Positions 15,792-53,181 of a DNA stretch of 64,000 nt are shown piece by piece. The DNA lies in assembly GCF_003391055.1 (NCBI RefSeq), contig NZ_QUAJ01000001.1:62001-126000 (forward strand), in the 5' to 3' direction. Below the pieces are notes generated by a model, which worked only from the letters and a program-made list of their open reading frames with translations, had not been told where the DNA came from and did no database searches. The position numbers and the translations under genes are program-made. The stretch's first letter is position 1. Every line of letters starts with the position of its first letter. This DNA is from Psychrilyobacter piezotolerans. GTDB lineage: Bacteria > Fusobacteriota > Fusobacteriia > Fusobacteriales > Fusobacteriaceae.

Positions 15792-16335
15792 AAAACAAAT
15801 AAGATCTGAAGTTTTAAAAAAAAGAAATAACCTCTCTAAGGAATTCATAAAAAAATATTCTGAAGAAGTTTTTAATATACTTATAAATTCTTCCATCTAT
15901 GCAGATGCTCACGTTATCATGTCCTATATGAGTTTTGGAGGAGAGATCGACACTAATTTTATAAACAACCATATTTTAAAAAGTGGAAAGACTCTAATCC
16001 TTCCAAAAATGATGGAAGATGGCGGGTTGGCAGGAGTTATCTATGATGATTCTAAAAAATTTAATGATGATAATTCATTTAAAATCAAAGAGATAGACGG
16101 GACTCATGCAGATATTAAAAAAATAGATCTGATTATCATTCCGGGATTAGCCTTTGATCTAAATGGCAGCCGTATAGGATTCGGGAAGGGGTACTATGAT
16201 AAATTTTTAGAAAATTATTCCGGCCTTATCGTAGCCCCCCACTACGACTTTCAACTATATGAAAACATTCCCTCTGAATCCCACGATAAAAAAATAAATT
16301 ATTTACTGGGAGGCTCTCTAAAAATTGTTAAATAA
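15784..16335 (+). CDS. 5-formyltetrahydrofolate cyclo-ligase (183 aa)
   Basis: Converts 5-formyl-THF to 5,10-methenyl-THF with ATP (MTHFS/YgfA family). Typical parts: MDKKQIRSEVLKKRNNLS at the start, SYMSFGGEIDT, and the signature SRIGFGKGYYDKFL followed by PHYDFQL. I start at the ATG at 15784, overlapping the glycosylase stop (ATGGATAA), because the protein then has the usual family length and N terminus; an upstream in-frame ATG lies inside the preceding gene. Confidence 0.92.
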   Translation: MDKKQIRSEVLKKRNNLSKEFIKKYSEEVFNILINSSIYADAHVIMSYMSFGGEIDTNFINNHILKSGKTLILPKMMEDGGLAGVIYDDSKKFNDDNSFKIKEIDGTHADIKKIDLIIIPGLAFDLNGSRIGFGKGYYDKFLENYSGLIVAPHYDFQLYENIPSESHDKKINYLLGGSLKIVK

Positions 16336-16339
16336 AAAA

Positions 16340-16366
16340 ACTCAAGGATGTCCTTGAGTTTTTTTA
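16340..16366. terminator. bidirectional terminator between convergent genes
   Basis: A-tract, ACTCAAGGA-TG-TCCTTGAGT, T-tract. It can end both the folate gene (+) and the chaperone gene (-). Confidence 0.9.
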
Positions 16367-16367
16367 C

Positions 16368-17270
16368 TTAACTTTCCTTTTTTCCTTCGATTTCAACTTT
16401 TTCTTTTTCCAGCTTTTTAGCTTCCACTTCTGCTTTCTTTTTTTCTTCCAACTCTTTTAGATATTTTTCTGCACTTATTTTTTTTATGGAAATAAGTTTT
16501 TCCCCTAGTTTAAATTCATCGTATTCCTCCTCTCCTTCCTTTACTTCCTTACTTCCCTTTGGAATTCTATAATAATATTCTACCTTCATCTTATTGGCAC
16601 CCTTTGAAATCTTATTTAACTCTGTAATAGAATCTAAATAATTCTCTCTCATAGCCTTTCCCACCAATAAATCTTCTGTTTTTAATTTTTTCATATTTTC
16701 ATAATAGGTTACCTTATAAACAACATCCAAGGCTGTTGTTCCTGTATTTGTTATCTTAGATACAAAATATGCCTTTTCCTTATCGGTAACAACCTGAAAG
16801 TCCTCAAAAATCCCCCCATACTCTAATTTACCCCTATAACCATATACTGTGGAAACCAGTATATGAATTATATCTATATTAACTCCTGCCTTACTCTCAT
16901 CTTTTTCACTATTATCATATTTTTTTACCGGCAATTCTTCAAATACCAGATGGCTTCTATACTCTCCATCCACCAGACCCTGAGGAGGTCTGGCAGCCAT
17001 CCTAATTGTTTTTTTACTATTGGGTTTAAGATAAACCAGCTTAGGATATACTATGATCCAGTCTCCCATATAGAGATCCTTGGTCTTCTGATCTTCAGGT
17101 CTCTGGGAATAAATTTTTATTTTTTTTAATTTATTGGTATCATTCCTCAGATAAATTTTCTGGGTTCCAGGTCTGTTTAAACTGACTTTTTGAACTTGAG
17201 GACCTACCTGGAAATTAGCATACAGCATTGAAATCATCAATAAGTATATGGATACTATTATTCTTTTCAT
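16368..17270 (-). CDS. PapD-like periplasmic pilus chaperone with long charged tail (about 300 aa)
   Basis: A signal peptide (KRIIVSIYLLMISMLYA) precedes an Ig-like domain built like the first domain of pilus chaperones: FQVGPQVQKVSLNRPGTQ, KIYLRNDTN, WIIVYPKLVYLKPNSKKTIR and GEYRSHLVFEELP. A second beta-rich part (about 125-235) follows. The last 50 residues are an unusual lysine/glutamate-rich helix absent from standard chaperones of about 230 aa. Start is ambiguous: ATGs at 17273 and 17270 both follow AGGTGG; I use 17270 for spacing. It starts next to the usher stop and closes the locus. It should hold subunits in the periplasm and hand them to the usher. Confidence 0.78.
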   Translation of the reverse strand: MKRIIVSIYLLMISMLYANFQVGPQVQKVSLNRPGTQKIYLRNDTNKLKKIKIYSQRPEDQKTKDLYMGDWIIVYPKLVYLKPNSKKTIRMAARPPQGLVDGEYRSHLVFEELPVKKYDNSEKDESKAGVNIDIIHILVSTVYGYRGKLEYGGIFEDFQVVTDKEKAYFVSKITNTGTTALDVVYKVTYYENMKKLKTEDLLVGKAMRENYLDSITELNKISKGANKMKVEYYYRIPKGSKEVKEGEEEYDEFKLGEKLISIKKISAEKYLKELEEKKKAEVEAKKLEKEKVEIEGKKES

Positions 17271-17282
17271 CATTAACACCAC

Positions 17283-19868
17283 CTATTCCTTTTCATAAGA
17301 GATAACTTTAAAGTTATAATCTTCATAATAACTTCCATATTTGTCCAGCTTAACATTTAATTTCTTAGTTTTTTCTTCGAAATTTAAACGTCCTTCTCCC
17401 CTGTAGTCCATCTCTAAGATATATTCTCCCGGGAGAACCTTATCCAGCATATAGAACCCCTCCGGTTCCACTCTTTGTTCCATAACTGTCTTTCCATCCA
17501 GAGTCTTCAACTGGATATAAAGCTGGGATATTATTGGAAAATGCTTTACCCCGTCCACTCCAGCTCCGCGGAACTCTAAATTCCCCATTATAACAGAAAT
17601 TTGCTGAACCGGGATATCCATATGCCCTCCGGTTGCCGGATATAATTTCACATATTTTTTCTCATTGGCTGCTTCTAACATAGGATCTAACGTCTCTATA
17701 TTAACCTCAAAATCCTTCACTTCATAGGAGCTGATATCATCTATAAAATACACTCCATCTGTTCCTGTTACTCCCTTTTTCCTTCCAACCTTTACCTCTA
17801 CGCCTTCTAAGAGAACTTCCCCCTCATCAAATTGATCATTATTATTGTCATCCATAAATACTTTTCCTTCCATCCAGGACCTGCTTGGAGATGGATTAGA
17901 ATTACTTGTAAATGGTTTTTCCAGGATAATAGTTTTTTCCACATCTACACCAACACTATAATCAGTTTCATCATCATCATGAGTTAAATCACCTATAACT
18001 TCTAGCCAGTTAAACACCTTATACCTCACTTCTAAACCTGCTTCATATTCATTTTCACTATTATACTTTACAAAAACACCTGCCTTTATTTTATTATTTT
18101 CTGCTGTTTTGAGGGCTACTTTCAGGTCTGTTTCATCCTCAAAATCTTGAAAATCAGAATTTATTTGGAGGATAAAATTCAAACTGGTATCATAAATTTT
18201 GATATCACTGTTGGAATAATTATAATATAATCTGCTCTTTCCATAGTCTTCTGAAAAAGGATAAGTAACTCCTAATTCATGGGTGGTATTATCTTTATTC
18301 CTATAAATCCCCGTACTACCGTATTCCTCAACTTCTCCAAATTTATCTAAGTTATCATATTTGAGATTGTATCCCCAATGCTTATTTATAACCCCTCTCC
18401 AATCGACAATATACCTGTTTTCATAACCTTCTAAAAAAGCTATGAAATCACTGTACATATACCCTTCCAGGGAAAGTACATTCCCGCCAAATCTTTGTCT
18501 TATCTTCCCTATATGGTTATACCTGTTTTCGGTATCATACTCTATATCATAGATCTCTGAGAACTCAAAATATGTGGGATATTTTACCGCTCCGGTTGTA
18601 TAATATAAATTCAATCCCGCCAGTTCTGTAGGATAATTATAGATGGTTTGTCCTTCCCTATTCTCTGTAAGATCATTTATATATTCAGCCCCTATGGTTA
18701 AATTATTGGTCAATCCATAGGCGATCTTAATATTTCCTTCCACTTCTTTTTCTTCCAGATCAACTTTTTCTCCTTCCTCCTCACCGTTTATCTCCCTGTA
18801 GGTACCTATCAAAAGACCGTAATCTACTTCACCTTTTTTCAGAATCTTATCTCCACTCATCATAGAGACCTGCCTTATCTCTATGGAACCGTCAAAATGA
18901 TATATCTTTATGGTATATATATCATTATAATTCTGGATATTAATATTTTCAAATATATAGGACCCGTCTTCTCCTACCCGGGTAAATTTATATAAGGAGC
19001 CGTTTCTGTATAATTCCACATTTGAATTAAAAGGCGCAAATCCTCTGATGGTGGTCTGCCCTATTTCTATATCCCCGACGCCATTCCACTCCTGAACAGC
19101 TAATCCTGTTAACCTTTTTGATCCCAGGAATTCATAGGTCTGCATATAGACATCCCCCACAATTATACTCTTTTCATCTATAATCTCATTGTATGTTAAG
19201 GCTGTATACCCCAGATAAGCATCCGGATGGATAAATCCCGTGGTGGTAAAATCCCCGTACAGCATGTGGGTATCATACCTTACCGATACAGTCCCCTCAT
19301 CCTCCTCTAAGTTATAATTAGTGTATCTAGGACGTAAAACTCCCGGGGTAAACAATTTCCTCTCCTGGGAATATACATCTTCCTCCTCTATCTCTTCCTT
19401 CCCCTCAGCCCCCAATTCTTTGAGTTTTTTTTCCTGCTCCAGATAGATCTCATAGGGAGTTTTAAATTTGGTTTTTATCTTCATGAGATATGTCTCTGTA
19501 TTCCAATTATATTCTTTCAGTTCAAAAACCCGGGACAGGTCCGTTCCCCTTATGTATACATCCTCTTCTCCTGTGATATATTTAGTATCTCCATAATAAA
19601 ACTTGTAATCTCTTTCTCCCATCCTCCCGTAAATCATCTTTTTTTCCCTGTCTATCTTCATCCCCCTGGACATAGTTAGAGCAAATAAGTTCATCACCCC
19701 TATATAGGGTTCCTCCATCTCATAATCCATATATATGGGGAAAAATGAATATTTGATTTTTTTATTTACATCTATCTCTATATACCCCTCCTCATAATTC
19801 CCTTTAAATTCCTCCCCAAAGGAAATCATAGAGAATAATAATAAAAATATAATTATTTTTTTTTTCAT
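17283..19868 (-). CDS. outer-membrane fimbrial usher-like protein (861 aa)
   Basis: Length and layout fit a chaperone-usher pore. Signal peptide (KKKIIIFLLLFSMISFG); N-terminal domain about 25-130 (IDVNKKIKYSFFPIYMDYE); then the usher core, including the hallmark IRGFAPFNSNVELYRNGSLY...GSYIFENINI and HFDGSIEIRQV (about 275-340), equivalent to the FimD RGFAP and 'ADGS' segments at the barrel/plug. Beta-rich barrel repeats run to about 660. An SdrD/CNA-like unit (KVFMDDNNNDQFDEGE...GTDGVYFIDDIS) lies at 670-760. I chose the third of three adjacent ATGs, eight bases after GGGGGG. Ushers of this kind are known mainly from Proteobacteria. Confidence 0.8.
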   Translation of the reverse strand: MKKKIIIFLLLFSMISFGEEFKGNYEEGYIEIDVNKKIKYSFFPIYMDYEMEEPYIGVMNLFALTMSRGMKIDREKKMIYGRMGERDYKFYYGDTKYITGEEDVYIRGTDLSRVFELKEYNWNTETYLMKIKTKFKTPYEIYLEQEKKLKELGAEGKEEIEEEDVYSQERKLFTPGVLRPRYTNYNLEEDEGTVSVRYDTHMLYGDFTTTGFIHPDAYLGYTALTYNEIIDEKSIIVGDVYMQTYEFLGSKRLTGLAVQEWNGVGDIEIGQTTIRGFAPFNSNVELYRNGSLYKFTRVGEDGSYIFENINIQNYNDIYTIKIYHFDGSIEIRQVSMMSGDKILKKGEVDYGLLIGTYREINGEEEGEKVDLEEKEVEGNIKIAYGLTNNLTIGAEYINDLTENREGQTIYNYPTELAGLNLYYTTGAVKYPTYFEFSEIYDIEYDTENRYNHIGKIRQRFGGNVLSLEGYMYSDFIAFLEGYENRYIVDWRGVINKHWGYNLKYDNLDKFGEVEEYGSTGIYRNKDNTTHELGVTYPFSEDYGKSRLYYNYSNSDIKIYDTSLNFILQINSDFQDFEDETDLKVALKTAENNKIKAGVFVKYNSENEYEAGLEVRYKVFNWLEVIGDLTHDDDETDYSVGVDVEKTIILEKPFTSNSNPSPSRSWMEGKVFMDDNNNDQFDEGEVLLEGVEVKVGRKKGVTGTDGVYFIDDISSYEVKDFEVNIETLDPMLEAANEKKYVKLYPATGGHMDIPVQQISVIMGNLEFRGAGVDGVKHFPIISQLYIQLKTLDGKTVMEQRVEPEGFYMLDKVLPGEYILEMDYRGEGRLNFEEKTKKLNVKLDKYGSYYEDYNFKVISYEKE

Positions 19869-20032
19869 CATCATATCCCCCCAAAAACAGCTTTCAGCCG
19901 GATTAACACACCACTAAGGTCAATTTTTTGAAACCGCTAATGACTACAATTTTCCTTTTCAAAGTCGTTTAAAGTCTGTGTCGAAATTTCTTGATCTTAA
20001 TTTTCTATTTTCGTCTGACAACTATTTTTTCC
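19869..20032 (-). repeat. intergenic repeat fragment inside the pilus-like locus
   Basis: Contains TTTTGAAACCGCTAATGACT near 19927, related to TTTTGAAACCGCTAATATTG at 40920 and AAAAACCGCTGATCTCATTA near 23897. This is the 'accgctaat/cacgga' dispersed repeat type, lying between the minor subunit and the usher. Confidence 0.5.
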
Positions 20033-20389
20033 CTAGTCCAGATACCTAACCACTATAGATAAATTATCTGTCAGGGTTTCATGTGCACTTATATTATTTA
20101 ACTCTAGTTTTATATCTAACCTAAATTTCCCATTTCCATTGCCATCTAGTTTTATCATTTTCTCCCTGGGTCGGATAGTCATCTTATTCCCATCCAGATC
20201 ATAAGTTTCAGGAACTATTATCTCCACCATTTTTCCTGACTTCCCCTCTACATAAACCCCTACATCGGTTAAGGAAACACTCCTGTCTCCTTCGACTACT
20301 ACCCCAAAATCAAATGGATCTACACTGGAAATTTCCAGGGAAAAACTAAAACTCATCACCAGGAAAAACATTAAAATTAACTTTTTCAT
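20033..20389 (-). CDS. small secreted protein, probable minor subunit of the usher locus (118 aa)
   Basis: Signal peptide MKKLILMFFLVMSFSFS, then about 100 residues of beta-rich sequence: VDPFDFGVVVEGDRSVSL, a central SGKMVEIIVPETYDLDG, and NLSIVVRY near the end. 'DFG.v' followed by strands and a final V.Y strand resembles the DUF4402/pilin-like fold, but similarity is faint. There are no cysteines. I start at 20389 (ATG after GGGGGTG) because the signal peptide begins there. It lies between the major subunit candidate and the usher on the same strand, which suggests a tip, adaptor or minor subunit. Confidence 0.7.
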   Translation of the reverse strand: MKKLILMFFLVMSFSFSLEISSVDPFDFGVVVEGDRSVSLTDVGVYVEGKSGKMVEIIVPETYDLDGNKMTIRPREKMIKLDGNGNGKFRLDIKLELNNISAHETLTDNLSIVVRYLD

Positions 20390-20525
20390 CTTATACACCC
20401 CCAAAATAACATCTATAATATTCATTTATAAGATACTGGATATTTTTTTATTTTCCTTTAAAAAAAAAATAAACTCGACTTGTATAAAATTTAACATCAA
20501 TAATTATTTTTCTACCTGTATATAA

Positions 20526-20551
20526 AATAAGCAGGCCGAAGCCTGCTTATT
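20526..20551 (-). terminator. partial terminator after the major subunit gene
   Basis: AATAAGCAGGC-CGAA-GCCTGCTTATT: an 11-bp stem with a tetraloop, then a moderately T-rich tract. Leaky termination here would give much subunit mRNA and little usher mRNA, a common plan in pilus operons (inference). Confidence 0.75.
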
Positions 20552-20569
20552 ATTTTTAGCTAATTAATC

Positions 20570-21193
20570 TTATTGATATTGAGCTATGGCAAATATAGTA
20601 CCAGATTTCAATCCAGGGGTAGTTAATTTTTTAAAGTATGCGTCTATTTCTATTTCTTTTACTCCTAAACCTAAATATACAAATCTTCCTGCAACTTCTA
20701 CACCTGCACCTAAATTACGTGTTTGTGTATAAGTGAATAATCCGTGATCCTTAATTGTTACTTTACCAGGAAGGTCGAATACTGGACCATGGAAGCTGAA
20801 TACAACTGTTGCTAAACCTTGACCGGCAACTCTGAATCCGATATCACCAATTTGTAATTCATCACCTACAACTGCTTCAGTATACAAGTAGTCTACTTCA
20901 GAATCAATTCTAATAGGTCTAAGTACATTAAGATAAACCTTAGTCATTGCTGTATCTGTCCAGCCAGGACCTTTGTCTCTGAATATATTGACAGCTCTGT
21001 TATTGTGTATTGCATTATCACCAGTAGTTATATCTCTATAAGCGTTAAATCCTCCTGCGTGTCCTGCTTCTGCATTAAGTTTAATACTTGGACCGTACAA
21101 AGCATCAGGTCCATTTAGAGAGATTCCTGCAGATACTGCAAATGCAGTTGATCCTATTGCTAAAATAGCAGCTAATAATAATAATTTTTTCAT
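20570..21193 (-). CDS. secreted protein, candidate major pilus subunit (207 aa)
   Basis: Clear signal peptide (MKKLLLLAAILAIGSTAFA) and a 188-residue mature part rich in glycine and beta strands, without cysteine. It ends GTIFAIAQYQ, a beta strand with tyrosine second from the end, as in many chaperone-usher pilins. I do not recognise a named family. The ATG at 21193 follows GGAGGTGGG at good distance; a GTG nine bases upstream would lie within this site. It has its own terminator and heads the locus minor subunit-usher-chaperone. A plain secreted or outer-membrane protein remains possible. Confidence 0.72.
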   Translation of the reverse strand: MKKLLLLAAILAIGSTAFAVSAGISLNGPDALYGPSIKLNAEAGHAGGFNAYRDITTGDNAIHNNRAVNIFRDKGPGWTDTAMTKVYLNVLRPIRIDSEVDYLYTEAVVGDELQIGDIGFRVAGQGLATVVFSFHGPVFDLPGKVTIKDHGLFTYTQTRNLGAGVEVAGRFVYLGLGVKEIEIDAYFKKLTTPGLKSGTIFAIAQYQ

Positions 21194-21449
21194 TTTTCCC
21201 ACCTCCGAAATTAAAAAAACGATAAGTTTTTAACTTCAGTATTTTCCATTGATGTTCTCTTGCTTTACATATTAATTGTTCCCCAACCACAGTAAAAAAT
21301 CGAACAGATAACTCCCCTTCTATTCACTTTGAAACTCAAAGTAAATGTTTGATTTAGTTAGTTAAAGTGAATATTTCTATAAGGATATTCAAAAAAAATT
21401 TAAACTTTTTCAAAAAAAAATGACTTTCTACTGAAAGTCATTTTTTCTG
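21194..21449 (-). promoter_or_regulatory. leader of the pilus-like locus with nested inverted repeats
   Basis: TATTCACTTT (21321-21330) is matched by AAAGTGAATA (21365-21374), and inside it ACTTTGA-AAC-TCAAAGT (21326-21342) is a perfect palindrome. These could be operator sites for the pilus genes; the regulator is unknown, although an ArsR-type regulator is the next gene. No clear -35/-10 pair is visible. Confidence 0.45.
21415..21446. terminator. terminator after the ArsR-family gene
   Basis: AAAAAATGACTTTC-TACT-GAAAGTCATTTTTT; symmetric, 14-bp stem, lying just past the arsR-type stop. Confidence 0.88.
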
Positions 21450-21713
21450 CTATATATTTAATGCTTTTAAAATATCTTTTATACTTTCCTCTGAAACTTT
21501 ATAGCAGACTTTTTTCCCGTTCTTCCTGGAACTTACTATCCCTGAATTCCTGAGGTGTGCCAGGTGCTGGGAAGCACTGGACTGGGAGACATTCAAAAGA
21601 TCTTCCAAATTTCCTACACAAATTTCATCTCTAAGTGTTAATTCCCTCAATATCCCTAATCTTATTGGATTAGACATCATCTTAAGCAGTAAGGTTGCTC
21701 TTTCTATAGTCAT
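21450..21713 (-). CDS. ArsR-family transcriptional regulator (87 aa)
   Basis: Winged-helix repressor: LLLKMMSNPIRLGILREL (helix 1-2), then the recognition helix NVSQSSASQHLAHLRNSGIV and the wing RKNGKKVCYKV. The two-cysteine metal motif of ArsR/SmtB (CVC) is reduced to ICVGNL with one cysteine (C32); a second (C70) is in the wing. One cysteine at this spot is seen in persulfide-sensing members such as SqrR and BigR, so a thiol-based signal is possible (inference). Start at 21713 is set by GAGGGGG. It begins ten bases after the MBL hydrolase stop, in one operon. Confidence 0.88.
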   Translation of the reverse strand: MTIERATLLLKMMSNPIRLGILRELTLRDEICVGNLEDLLNVSQSSASQHLAHLRNSGIVSSRKNGKKVCYKVSEESIKDILKALNI

Positions 21714-38460: not shown

Positions 38461-39525
38461 TTAATTAAACACTTTTTTTACATAGGGTGATGTGGTTAAC
38501 TGCAAAAGGGAACCATAATCTAACTTAAATTCCACTATATCTCCTACCTTATATTCCCTTTTTGAATCGGTTACATCCAGCACCAAATGATCACTACTGG
38601 CACCTAATATTATTAATTTTTCATCCATTGCTTCTAAGTTAGACTGGTCTACATCTTGTTTTCCAATGGCTAATATAGCACGTTTTCTCTTTCCCCTGTC
38701 GATAAATACAGGTTTTTTCCCAAAAGCATTGAGCCCAATTTCTCCCACTGGATAGGACTCCTTTTCTTTCAGTTCTATTATCTCTACCTCTAATTTTACA
38801 CTGTCATAGAAGCACCCTTCTAGATTTTTTCCATAGGCTGTTCCCCTCCCAAAGATAAGGGCTTCTCCCAACCTTAGGTTATTTATTTTTGGCGGCATCT
38901 TCTTCTTCCACAAAAGATCTAAACTACTGGAATTCCCTCCTGAGATAATATTCAATTTTAAATCATATTTTTTCTCTATTAAATTCGCAATTTTTTCTAA
39001 TTGTTCTAAATTATCGAAGCTGGGGATGATCCCACCATAACATGTGAGATTCACACCTATCCCCTCTAATTTAATATTTTGCATAGAACTTATCTGATCC
39101 ATATAGCTCTCTACATCTTCAGGCAGGATTCCCTCTCTGAGGTCTCCTAATTCAAGCATCAGAATAATTCTGTGGACTCTATATTGTTTTCCTGCCTCCT
39201 CATTTAAAAGAGCTATAGTAGATATTTCACTGTTTAAACTTATATCCACATGTTTTACCACTTCTTTTATCTGGGAACTCATAGGCAGACGGATCATTAC
39301 CTTGGGAACATCTAAGCTTTCATATTTTTTTAAATTTTCTACCCTGGAATCTCCTAAATATTTTACTCCTCCTTCCACTAATATCTTAGCTACCTCAATA
39401 TTTCCAGAAAAAACTTTGGTTATTCCCACTACATCTATCTGGGATTCCCTGCATTTTTTTGTCAAAACTTTTACATTTTTTCTAATTTTATCCAAATCAA
39501 CCACTACCCTTGGGTATTCAGTCAT
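38461..39525 (-). CDS. orr: ornithine racemase Orr, copy 1 (354 aa)
   Basis: PLP fold-type III racemase converting L-ornithine to D-ornithine, the substrate of the aminomutase. EYPRVVVDLDKIRKNV, then VVGITKVFSG (PLP lysine), VKYLGDSRVEN, GVNLTCYGGI and ISGGNSSSLDLL follow the Orr/YhfX pattern. Last gene of the main ornithine operon; its ATG overlaps the glmL stop (ATGA) with GAGGAGGTGG upstream. A second copy at 49971 is closely similar (10 differences in the first 60 residues). Confidence 0.92.
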   Translation of the reverse strand: MTEYPRVVVDLDKIRKNVKVLTKKCRESQIDVVGITKVFSGNIEVAKILVEGGVKYLGDSRVENLKKYESLDVPKVMIRLPMSSQIKEVVKHVDISLNSEISTIALLNEEAGKQYRVHRIILMLELGDLREGILPEDVESYMDQISSMQNIKLEGIGVNLTCYGGIIPSFDNLEQLEKIANLIEKKYDLKLNIISGGNSSSLDLLWKKKMPPKINNLRLGEALIFGRGTAYGKNLEGCFYDSVKLEVEIIELKEKESYPVGEIGLNAFGKKPVFIDRGKRKRAILAIGKQDVDQSNLEAMDEKLIILGASSDHLVLDVTDSKREYKVGDIVEFKLDYGSLLQLTTSPYVKKVFN

Positions 39526-47744: not shown

Positions 47745-48935
47745 TTACAAATCTATATTGTCCAATACTTCATCCTTTATCTCTATAATTTCATTATCTT
47801 TTTTATATACTCTAGGAACTCTTTTACTTACATTGCATAGGACTTCATAACTTATGGTCCCCAATATATCTGCTATATCCTCTGGAGTCACTCTATTGTA
47901 CTGGTCTTCCCCGAATAAGATAACTTCATCTCCTCCATGTACATCTAAACCTGTTATATCCACTACAAATTTATCCATACAGATGGCTCCAGCTACTCTC
48001 GCCACTGCATTTTTACCCTTGATGATTACTTTTCCCTTATTACTGAGTCCACGGCTGTATCCATCTGCATATCCGATTGGTATCAATCCTGTCCGGGATT
48101 CTCTGTTTACCGTATATGTAAGTCCATAACTTATTGATTCCCCTTTTTCCAGTGTTCTTATATGATAGATCTTACTGTGCAGGGACATCACCTGTTTCAA
48201 ATCTATCACCTTATCTTTCTCCTGTACTTCCGATGGATAGTGTCCGTACATGAGGAGTCCTGCCCTCACCATATCATAGTTAAATTCCGGCAGATCTAAT
48301 ATGGCTGCACTATTTGACACATGTTTTATGGGTATTTCTACCCCTAGTTTTTTTAGTTCATCTATTATGTACGTAAATTCCTTCACCTGTTTTATGGTGT
48401 ACCATTTATCTGCTTCATCAGCCACTGCAAAATGGGTGTAGACTCCCTCTAAATATAAGTTATCCAGCTCACTTATCTCTTTTATAACTTCTACAGTCCT
48501 ATATTTTATAGGTAATCCTACCCTATGCATTCCCGTGTCTACATTTATGTGTACCGCAATTTTTTTCCCGTGTAATTTAGCCAATTCATTTAATACTTTG
48601 GCCTGTCTAAGGGAGTATATTGTAGGAGTTATATCCCATTGAATTACCTCTTCTAAATTAGCATCTGGAGTATATCCCAGCAATATAATCTGTATATCCT
48701 TATATGAATTCCTTATCTCTATAGCTTCCGACAATACTGCCACTGCAAATTTATTTATATTCTCTGCTTTTAGTGTGTCGATCACTCCCAGAGCTCCATG
48801 ACCATAGGCATCAGCTTTTATTACCGCCATGACTTCGGTTCCTGGTTTTATGTGTTTTTTTATCTCCCTCATATTGTGTCCCAAATTATCTAGATTGACC
48901 TCTACCCAAACAGGTCTTTTGAGATTTAATTCCAT
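47745..48935 (-). CDS. alr: alanine racemase, copy 1 (396 aa)
   Basis: PLP fold-type III racemase. VMAVIKADAYGHGAL holds the PLP lysine; HINVDTGMHRVGL, HVSNSAAIL, SYGLTYTV (catalytic tyrosine on the opposite face) and IGYADGYSRGL are standard. First gene of the main operon. OrtAB releases D-alanine, so an alanine racemase here makes sense to recover L-alanine for catabolism; supply of D-alanine for cell wall is the textbook role. Copy 2 is at 51979 (6 differences in the first 60 shared residues). Confidence 0.92.
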   Translation of the reverse strand: MELNLKRPVWVEVNLDNLGHNMREIKKHIKPGTEVMAVIKADAYGHGALGVIDTLKAENINKFAVAVLSEAIEIRNSYKDIQIILLGYTPDANLEEVIQWDITPTIYSLRQAKVLNELAKLHGKKIAVHINVDTGMHRVGLPIKYRTVEVIKEISELDNLYLEGVYTHFAVADEADKWYTIKQVKEFTYIIDELKKLGVEIPIKHVSNSAAILDLPEFNYDMVRAGLLMYGHYPSEVQEKDKVIDLKQVMSLHSKIYHIRTLEKGESISYGLTYTVNRESRTGLIPIGYADGYSRGLSNKGKVIIKGKNAVARVAGAICMDKFVVDITGLDVHGGDEVILFGEDQYNRVTPEDIADILGTISYEVLCNVSKRVPRVYKKDNEIIEIKDEVLDNIDL

Positions 48936-49970: not shown

Positions 49971-51032
49971 TTACCATGTTTTTTTTACGTAGGGTGATGT
50001 GGTTAACTGCAGAAGGGAACCATAATTCAGCTTAAATCCAACTATATCTCCTACCTTATATTTTATTTTTGAGTCAGTTACATCCACCACCAAATGATCA
50101 CTGCTGGAACCTAAGATTATTAATTTTTCATCCATTGTTTCTAAATTGGAATGATCTACATCTTGTTTTCCAATAGCTAGTATAGCCCGCTTTCTCTTAC
50201 CTCTATCGATAAATACTGGTTTTTCTCCAAAAGCATTGACTCCAATTTCTCCCACTGGATAGGACTTCTTTTCTTTTAATTCTATTATCTCTACCTCTAA
50301 TTTTACACTGTCATGAAAGCAGCCTTCCAGATCTTTTCCATAAGCGGTTTCCCTTCCAAAAATAAGAGATTCTCCCAACCTTAGATTATTTATTTTTGGC
50401 GGCATATTATTGTTCCACAAAAGATCCAAACTACTGGAATTTCCACCTGATATAATATTTAATTTTAAATTATATTTTCCCTCTATTAAATTCGAAATTA
50501 TCTCTAATTTTTCCAAATTCTCAAAGCTGGGAATGATCCCACCATAACACGTGAGGTTTACACCAATCCCTTCTAATTTAATATTTTTCATAGAATTTAG
50601 CTGATCCATATAACACTCTACATCTTCAGGCAGGACCCCTTCTCTCAGGTCTCCTAATTCAATCATCAAAATAATTTTATGAACTTTACCTTGTTTTCCT
50701 GCCTCCTCATTTAAAAGGGCTATGGTAGATATTTCACTGTTTAAACTTATATCCACATGCTTTATCACTTCTTTTATCTGGGATCTCATAGGCAGACGGA
50801 TCATCACTTTGGGAACATCTAAATTTTTATATTTTTTTAAATTTTTCACCCTGGAATCTCCCAAATATTTTACCCCTCCTTCCACCAAGACCTTGGCCAT
50901 CTCCAGGCTTCCAGAAAAAACTTTGGTTACCCCCACTACATCTATCTGGGATTCATAACATTTTTTTGTCAAAAATTTTACATTATCTCTGATCTTTTCC
51001 AAATTCACTACTACTCTTGGGTATTCAGTCAT
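49971..51032 (-). CDS. orr: ornithine racemase Orr, copy 2 (353 aa)
   Basis: Same family and motifs as the copy at 38461 (VVGVTKVFSG with the PLP lysine, GVNLTCYGGI, ISGGNSSSLDLL). All motifs are intact, so it should be active. Its ATG overlaps the arginase 2 stop (ATGA). The C terminus ends ...SPYVKKTW rather than ...SPYVKKVFN. Placing arginase directly before ornithine racemase gives arginine to D-ornithine in two steps within one small operon. Confidence 0.92.
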   Translation of the reverse strand: MTEYPRVVVNLEKIRDNVKFLTKKCYESQIDVVGVTKVFSGSLEMAKVLVEGGVKYLGDSRVKNLKKYKNLDVPKVMIRLPMRSQIKEVIKHVDISLNSEISTIALLNEEAGKQGKVHKIILMIELGDLREGVLPEDVECYMDQLNSMKNIKLEGIGVNLTCYGGIIPSFENLEKLEIISNLIEGKYNLKLNIISGGNSSSLDLLWNNNMPPKINNLRLGESLIFGRETAYGKDLEGCFHDSVKLEVEIIELKEKKSYPVGEIGVNAFGEKPVFIDRGKRKRAILAIGKQDVDHSNLETMDEKLIILGSSSDHLVVDVTDSKIKYKVGDIVGFKLNYGSLLQLTTSPYVKKTW

Positions 51033-51978: not shown

Positions 51979-53181
51979 TTAAAAATTTAAATCTATCTTG
52001 TCCAGCACTTCATCCTTTATCTCCATTATCTTATTCCCTTTTTTATACACTCTAGGAACCCTTTTACTTACATTACATAAAATTTCGTAACTTATGGTCC
52101 CCAGCATATCCGCCAGATCTTCCGGAGTTATTTTATTGTATTCATCCTCCCCGAATAAGATAACTTCATCTCCTCCATTTATATCCATATCTATATCTGT
52201 AATATCTACTACAAATTTATCCATGCAGATAGCCCCTGCTACCTTTGCCAATCTATTTTTCCCTTTGATAATTACACTTGCTTTATTACTGAGTCCACGG
52301 CTGTATCCGTCGGCATATCCGATCGGTATCAACCCCAGCCTGGAGTCTTTGTTTACCGTATATGTCAGTCCATAACTTATTGATTTACCTTTTTCCAATG
52401 TTCTTATATGATAGATCTTACTATGGAGAGACATCACCGATTTCAACTCTATCACCTTATCTTTCTCCTGTACTTCCGATGGATAGAGTCCATACATGAG
52501 GAGTCCTGCCCTTACCATATCATAGTTAAATTCCGGCAGGTCTAATATAGCAGCACTATTTGACACATGTTTTATAGGAATTTCTACCCCCAATTTTTCC
52601 AACTCATCTATTATATATTTAAATTCTTCCACCTGTTTTATGGTATACCCTTTGTCCGCTTCATCAGCTACTGCAAAATGAGTATAAACCCCCTCCAAAC
52701 ATAAATTATCCATCTCGCTTATCTCTTTTATAACTTCTACAGTCCTATATTTTATAGGTAATCCTACCCTGTGCATCCCTGTATCTACACTTATATGTAC
52801 AGCAATTTTTTTCCCATGTGATCCAGCTAATTTGTCCAATATTTCAGCCTGTCTAAGGGAATATATTGTAGGAGTTATATTCCATTTAATTACCTCTTCT
52901 AAATTAGCATCTGGAGTATATCCCAGCAATATAATCTGTATATCCTTATCTGAATTCCTTATTTCTATAGCTTCTGACAACACTGCCACTGCAAATTTAT
53001 TTATATTTTCTGATTTTAGTGTCTCTATCATTCCCAAAGCACCATGACCATAGGCGTCGGCTTTTATTACTGCCATAACTTCAGTTCCTGGTTTTATGTG
53101 TTTTTTTATCTCTCTCATATTGTGTCCTAAATTATCTAGATTGATCTCTACCCAAACAGGTCTTTTAACATCTAATTCCAT
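51979..53181 (-). CDS. alr: alanine racemase, copy 2 (400 aa)
   Basis: Paralogue of the racemase at 47745, with IKADAYGHGAL, HISVDTGMHRVGL, HVSNSAAIL, SYGLTYTV and GYADGYSRGL all present. It has a short insertion in DITDIDMDINGGDEV where copy 1 has DITGLDVHGGDEV. I start at the ATG at 53181, ten bases after GGGAG; the GTG nine bases earlier is too close to that site. It heads the duplicated set alr2-arginase2-orr2. Confidence 0.92.
   Translation of the reverse strand: MELDVKRPVWVEINLDNLGHNMREIKKHIKPGTEVMAVIKADAYGHGALGMIETLKSENINKFAVAVLSEAIEIRNSDKDIQIILLGYTPDANLEEVIKWNITPTIYSLRQAEILDKLAGSHGKKIAVHISVDTGMHRVGLPIKYRTVEVIKEISEMDNLCLEGVYTHFAVADEADKGYTIKQVEEFKYIIDELEKLGVEIPIKHVSNSAAILDLPEFNYDMVRAGLLMYGLYPSEVQEKDKVIELKSVMSLHSKIYHIRTLEKGKSISYGLTYTVNKDSRLGLIPIGYADGYSRGLSNKASVIIKGKNRLAKVAGAICMDKFVVDITDIDMDINGGDEVILFGEDEYNKITPEDLADMLGTISYEILCNVSKRVPRVYKKGNKIMEIKDEVLDKIDLNF

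Follow-up and report, generated by a model that had tools for sequence, protein, structure and literature searches.

Chaperone-usher (CU) pili are a main adhesive organelle of Gram-negative bacteria. In archaic (sigma) systems, the closest reference class for the locus reported here, Arg89 and Tyr196 have been defined as the anchors of the chaperone and paired cysteines in the pilin domain as a class feature (PMC4654587). A survey of ushers lists Proteobacteria, Spirochaetes, Cyanobacteria and Deinococcus-Thermus, not Fusobacteria (PMC4827864), and a recent review states that chaperone/usher pathways are absent from two genomes of the F. nucleatum group (PMC12940168). Our full-text search, whose coverage leaves out most subscription literature, retrieved no CU system described in Fusobacteriota. 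We analysed a stretch of 64,000 nucleotides (the window) from Psychrilyobacter piezotolerans (contig NZ_QUAJ01000001.1; assembly of 3.36 Mb in 86 contigs), in which an original prediction had placed a chaperone-usher-like locus at 16368-21193 as a possible undescribed branch of the pathway. This locus very probably encodes a small CU pilus of a divergent CU branch. Judged from its sequence, it appears to be a genuine CU pilus locus belonging to a broadly distributed branch that has seemingly gone unrecognised.

All four predicted minus-strand open reading frames (ORFs) were present, in the order and at the positions given by the original prediction, including the second small secreted protein, a 118-amino acid (aa) ORF at 20033-20389. 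The features of the locus are as follows:

20570-21193, minus strand: major pilin gene (207 aa, secreted)
20526-20551, minus strand: hairpin between the major and minor subunit genes (11-bp stem)
20033-20389, minus strand: minor subunit gene (118 aa, secreted)
17283-19874, minus strand: usher gene (863 aa)
18819-19052, minus strand: plug region of the usher, about residues 275-352 (PF00577 match and PapC alignment)
17385-17873, minus strand: C-terminal domains of the usher, about residues 668-830 (SdrD_B/prealbumin-like similarity, collinear with archaic ushers)
16368-17270, minus strand: periplasmic chaperone gene (300 aa, GEYR signature, Lys/Glu tail)
16327-16372, minus strand: terminator-like hairpin 3′ of the chaperone gene (pattern scan)
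20921-20944, minus strand: candidate donor strand TKVYLNVL of the major pilin (alignment with other pilins)
21194-21455, minus strand: leader 5′ of the major pilin gene (sequences compared side by side)

The same four-gene order, which the original prediction had proposed to look for in other fusobacterial genomes, is shared by four species of the genus and by one cluster from a second genus, and the arrangement is therefore more than chance. Relatives were gathered from 98 Fusobacteriia genomes, and 41 ushers and 34 chaperones were aligned, each set including one Fuchsiella sequence. The classical reference systems and Ecp came from E. coli K-12; those of the archaic class came only from clusters on proteobacterial plasmids. 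All four proteins are supported as homologues of CU components, because the profile comparisons gave matches (hhalign probability, P) with negative reversed-alignment controls (P 0.1-2.4 overall, and 0.2-1.0 for the usher and chaperone comparisons).

The 863-aa ORF contains the core motif reported earlier (IRGFAPFNSNVELYRNG and HFDGSIE) and, as a single sequence, matched PF00577 at residues 275-371 under the curated cut-off. The usher comparison suggested by the original prediction gave matches at the family level: the family profile matched PapC structures (E = 9.7e-7), with profile columns 237-513 aligned to PapC 223-518 and the core motif falling in the stretch aligned with the PapC plug, and the fusobacterial profile aligned with archaic ushers along almost the full length (666 columns; P = 97.8, against 0.3 for the reversed control) and matched classical ushers with P = 96.7. 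Neither PapC_N nor PapC_C was among the 24 Pfam families matched by the 41 branch ushers; PapC_C was matched by 10 and PapC_N by 5 of 12 reference ushers. TcfC was matched by only two of the 41 (best E = 0.046), and CooC_C was not among the families matched. An SdrD/CNA-like unit had been noted near the C terminus. The similarity itself was recovered (SdrD_B, E = 6.4e-6) and recurred, as SdrD_B/prealbumin-like, in 40/41 usher relatives, but the region is collinear with the C-terminal domains of archaic ushers and represents these normal domains instead of an extra unit. We rejected it as an added adhesive domain on the same alignment.

Some usher relatives showed peculiarities of their own. 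A 1301-aa open frame (L061:1545-5444, G054:C9) gave additional matches in the C-terminal portion of the profile, suggestive of repeated C-terminal domains. The Fuchsiella usher frame (L003:7455-10490), whose start position is uncertain, opens with what may be a membrane segment, and a long repeat rich in EEDK also precedes the usher proper. Disrupted usher copies, with multiple stops or changes of frame, occur in genomes that also carry intact ones (G027:C1:3194892-3197405, G022:C229:13206-15742 and G019:C1:171227-173778), which suggests loss or turnover of clusters.

The 300-aa protein, called PapD-like in the original prediction, matched PF00345 under the curated cut-off as a single sequence, and CsuC both alone (phmmer E = 3e-4) and as a family profile (9.5e-5). 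Its profile covered both domains of archaic chaperones with P = 97.4 and reached P = 85.3 with classical chaperones. Both archaic anchors, Arg89 and Tyr196, were present in 7/7 archaic reference chaperones. Among the 34 branch chaperones, Arg was not among the commonest residues at the Arg89-aligned column, Tyr did not appear among those listed at the Tyr196-aligned column, and a YR[LVI] string occurred anywhere in only four. In 31/34 branch chaperones and in both Vibrio ones described below, a GEY[RK]-type motif places an Arg or Lys two positions N-terminal of the Arg89 column; an Arg or Lys also stands three positions C-terminal of the Tyr196 column, again in 31/34 branch chaperones. Our hypothesis is that the basic residue of GEY[RK] and the Arg/Lys of domain 2 may act as new subunit anchors. 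The 50-residue Lys/Glu tail is present as described (56% Lys+Glu over the last 50 residues), but it proved to be a variable extension that, among the genera looked at, occurs in this genus only.

Neither of the two window subunits matched a Pfam family. The original prediction recognised no pilin family for them; via their relatives, however, they join an SCPU/DUF4402-like family. A fusobacterial pilin profile was built from Fusobacteria and Fuchsiella pilins with the window-type clusters left out. It matched archaic SCPU pilins with P = 96.2 (reversed control 0.1), and one fusobacterial relative scored just above the SCPU cut-off (23.3 vs 22.4 bits), another just under that of DUF4402. Against the fusobacterial pilins, the 118-aa protein reached P = 96.1 (0.3 in the reversed control), its match starting at profile column 30. 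The match of the 207-aa protein to fusobacterial pilins from outside the genus spanned residues 62-191, with P = 90.0 and a reversed control of 2.4. The 207-aa protein consists of a signal peptide, an N-terminal tail of about 60 aa, the donor strand region and a pilin domain ending in AIAQYQ; its last residues, FAIAQYQ, hold the penultimate tyrosine noted before. TKVYLNVL aligns with the alternating hydrophobic stretch that precedes strand A in other pilins, and we infer that it could act as the donor strand. The 118-aa subunit seems to lack an N-terminal donor strand (its FG motif is at residue 25 of the precursor; for subunits that do not adjoin the usher the median position is 50) and therefore should sit at the tip. 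No cysteine was found in the mature part of either window subunit. Across 71 fusobacterial subunits, 56 had none and eight had two or more; all 8/8 archaic pilins had at least two.

The codon adaptation index (CAI), calculated with the genome's own ribosomal protein genes as reference, was 0.695 for the 207-aa gene, which ranked second of 46 window ORFs, and 0.366, 0.451 and 0.503 for the 118-aa, usher and chaperone genes, respectively. The hairpin that the original prediction saw after the first subunit gene lies at 20526-20551, with a GCAGGC-UUCG-GCCUGC core, a weak U-tract and a folding energy of -17.3 kcal/mol for the stretch (z -3.0); in four relatives a hairpin occupies the corresponding position after the major pilin gene but differs in sequence. 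An Rfam scan of the locus region gave no real match. Codon bias and the hairpin after the 207-aa gene together suggest a major and a minor subunit whose output is made to differ by partial termination or by processing of the mRNA. The hairpin itself is likely an attenuator or an mRNA-processing site.

The original prediction took CU systems outside Proteobacteria to be scattered cases, which did not hold for this system. The branch usher profile found near full-length ushers in 38/98 Fusobacteriia genomes (any match in 44), in seven genera of one family and often several per genome, while PF00577 exceeded its cut-off in 3/98. Short matches on the usher C-terminal domains only (G041, G044, G046 and G062) were not counted as ushers. 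In the mapped fusobacterial clusters, a chaperone and small secreted subunits lie near the usher. A further usher relative was found in Fuchsiella alkaliacetigena (Halanaerobiales; locus L003), and the Fuchsiella chaperone led to vibrio clusters in which a DUF4402 pilin, a second subunit, a chaperone and an usher stand together. No relatives of the window usher were found in the viral contigs and plasmids searched, and the full-text literature searched contained no mention of DUF4402. The Vibrio clusters of the branch are:

L092:6081-10178: V. campbellii cluster with DUF4402 pilins, chaperone and usher
L093:5855-10012: V. parahaemolyticus cluster with DUF4402 pilins, chaperone and usher

The Vibrio usher pair matched the fusobacterial profile with P = 99.9 (E = 7e-32), against 87.5 for archaic and 2.6 for classical ushers, and the Vibrio chaperones matched the fusobacterial chaperone profile with P = 99.7. 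In L093, the annotation of usher, chaperone and second subunit does not go beyond hypothetical protein, and L092 is unannotated. In the usher tree, from the last version of which Ecp was left out owing to a long-branch join, Fusobacteriaceae, Fuchsiella and Vibrio split from the archaic and classical ushers and a Photobacterium usher with support of 100/100. The chaperone tree, computed without Vibrio, kept Fusobacteriaceae and Fuchsiella together (96/94). These trees support a branch separate from the sampled archaic and classical systems. They also agree with the earlier suggestion of an undescribed branch, as does the lack of any description in the full-text literature searched. We give about even chances to a fuller claim, namely that this is a distinct, old CU branch of Fusobacteriaceae, Halanaerobiales and Vibrionaceae with mostly cysteine-free pili, its own basic C-terminus anchors (GEY[RK] in chaperone domain 1, Arg/Lys in domain 2) and a chaperone-subunit register unlike that of classical and archaic systems.

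Pilus assembly by the locus is likely, and the steps proposed for it are read from sequence. The likely product is a two-subunit fibre made of the 207-aa cysteine-free major pilin and a 118-aa tip. Both subunits would enter the periplasm by Sec, where the 300-aa chaperone would complete their unfinished Ig-like fold and deliver them to the 863-aa usher, with the plug presumably closing the barrel until use. The 118-aa subunit would go first and form the tip, since without a donor strand it could only be the first, and the 207-aa subunit would polymerise behind it by donor-strand exchange through TKVYLNVL. The hairpin after the first gene may help the major pilin to far outnumber the other parts. 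The result would be a surface fibre with a possible role in adhesion.

Several observations weigh against a divergent CU pilus. As single sequences, the window proteins gave no match above a curated cut-off, and the window subunits compared directly with archaic or classical pilins gave nothing significant, the link running via other fusobacterial pilins. The AlphaFold models of the usher (mean predicted local distance difference test, pLDDT, of 30.6; alignment of three sequences) and of the 207-aa pilin (mean pLDDT 48.9; eight sequences) neither show nor exclude the barrel and the pilin fold, respectively. The tail of the major pilin had no match and the 118-aa subunit no adhesin domain. The archaic members of the trees are proteobacterial only, and the trees give the split and not the position of the root. 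A Foldseek search with the low-confidence pilin model returned no match at E<=0.001 and was not counted as evidence; its top 50 included DraE/AfaE and the type 1 pilus rod, but also PliG and unrelated beta-sandwiches.

It is unlikely that the locus is an ordinary archaic system which merely diverged in Fusobacteria without forming a separate branch. Of the three reference classes, the archaic one came nearest in usher, chaperone and pilin alike, and one fusobacterial pilin passed the SCPU cut-off, both in favour of such a system; however, archaic and classical ushers grouped together against the branch (100/100), Arg89 and Tyr196 were not at the aligned columns, most branch pilins were free of the cysteines that 8/8 archaic pilins carry at least in twos, and the Vibrio members matched the branch far better than the archaic class. 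Less likely still is a CU-like secretion or surface-layer system that would release the two proteins one by one or as a non-fimbrial coat, with no pilus rod. Some known CU systems, e.g. F1 antigen, form thin or amorphous fibres and not rods, and their existence, together with the presence of only two subunits, the missing adhesin domain and the long N-terminal tail of the major subunit, speaks for such a system. Against it, the major subunit has a donor strand and the codon usage of an abundant protein, and the minor subunit has no donor strand, as expected of a tip; both subunits fit polymerisation. Chance similarity among unrelated beta-rich envelope proteins (a barrel carrying SdrD/prealbumin-like domains, Ig-like proteins) would account for every single-sequence match falling under its curated cut-off, but it is very improbable, since profile matches were obtained in four separate cases while the reversed controls stayed negative, PapC and CsuC ranked first among solved structures, and all parts are linked in many genomes.

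If the reading as a divergent CU pilus is correct, many Fusobacteriaceae hold one to several CU systems that standard models overlook (38/98 vs 3/98 genomes), and the locus offers an immediate candidate adhesion system for the family, together with a profile to annotate it. It would also allow changes in subunit anchoring during the divergence of the CU pathway to be put to the test, and its mostly cysteine-free pilins would contrast with the disulphide-bearing archaic ones.

Upstream of the locus, window-type clusters in four species of the genus are accompanied by arsR, hydrolase and ychF-like genes. The leader of about 260 bases (21194-21455, minus strand), just downstream of the arsR-family gene, contains stretches conserved in the four species, among them a ATTCACTT / AAGTGAAT-like inverted repeat, and is possibly a regulatory leader or operator. 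Elsewhere in the window, two near-duplicate gene pairs (38461-39525 with 49971-51032, and 47745-48935 with 51979-53181) were recognised from their N-terminal sequences, MTEYPRVVV... and MEL..KRPVWVE..., and apparently represent a local duplication of racemase-like genes.

Compared with described systems, the alternative (alpha) class, represented by ECP, shares the chaperone-usher logic, but Ecp fell on the branch side of the trees by a long-branch join and its hhalign matches to the branch were weak (usher P 0.9, chaperone 45, pilin 1.7); one Vibrio usher had a weak match to CooC_C of this class. Classical pili (type 1 FimACD and P pili with PapC) likewise have a plug usher with two C-terminal domains and a PapD-like chaperone, PapC was the best solved-structure match of the branch usher profile, and the penultimate Tyr of the window major pilin is FimA-like. 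Unlike them, branch ushers have no PapC_N or PapC_C matches, and the chaperone and pilin matches to this class were much weaker. Archaic (sigma) pili such as Acinetobacter Csu (CsuA/B, CsuC, CsuD) were the best reference class for the usher, chaperone and pilin profiles, and their pilins resemble those of the branch in the alternating donor stretch at the N terminus and in a C terminus of G.Y type; archaic systems differ from the branch in that its chaperones lack Arg89/Tyr196 at the aligned columns and carry their own GEY[RK], and its pilins are mostly cysteine-free. In the DUF4402-type clusters of V. campbellii and V. parahaemolyticus, the chaperone gene precedes the usher gene and the pilins score above the DUF4402 cut-off, unlike in the window, but pilin, second subunit, chaperone and usher adjoin as they do here, and the second subunit of the V. 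campbellii cluster starts directly at the first pilin strand, similar to the 118-aa subunit.
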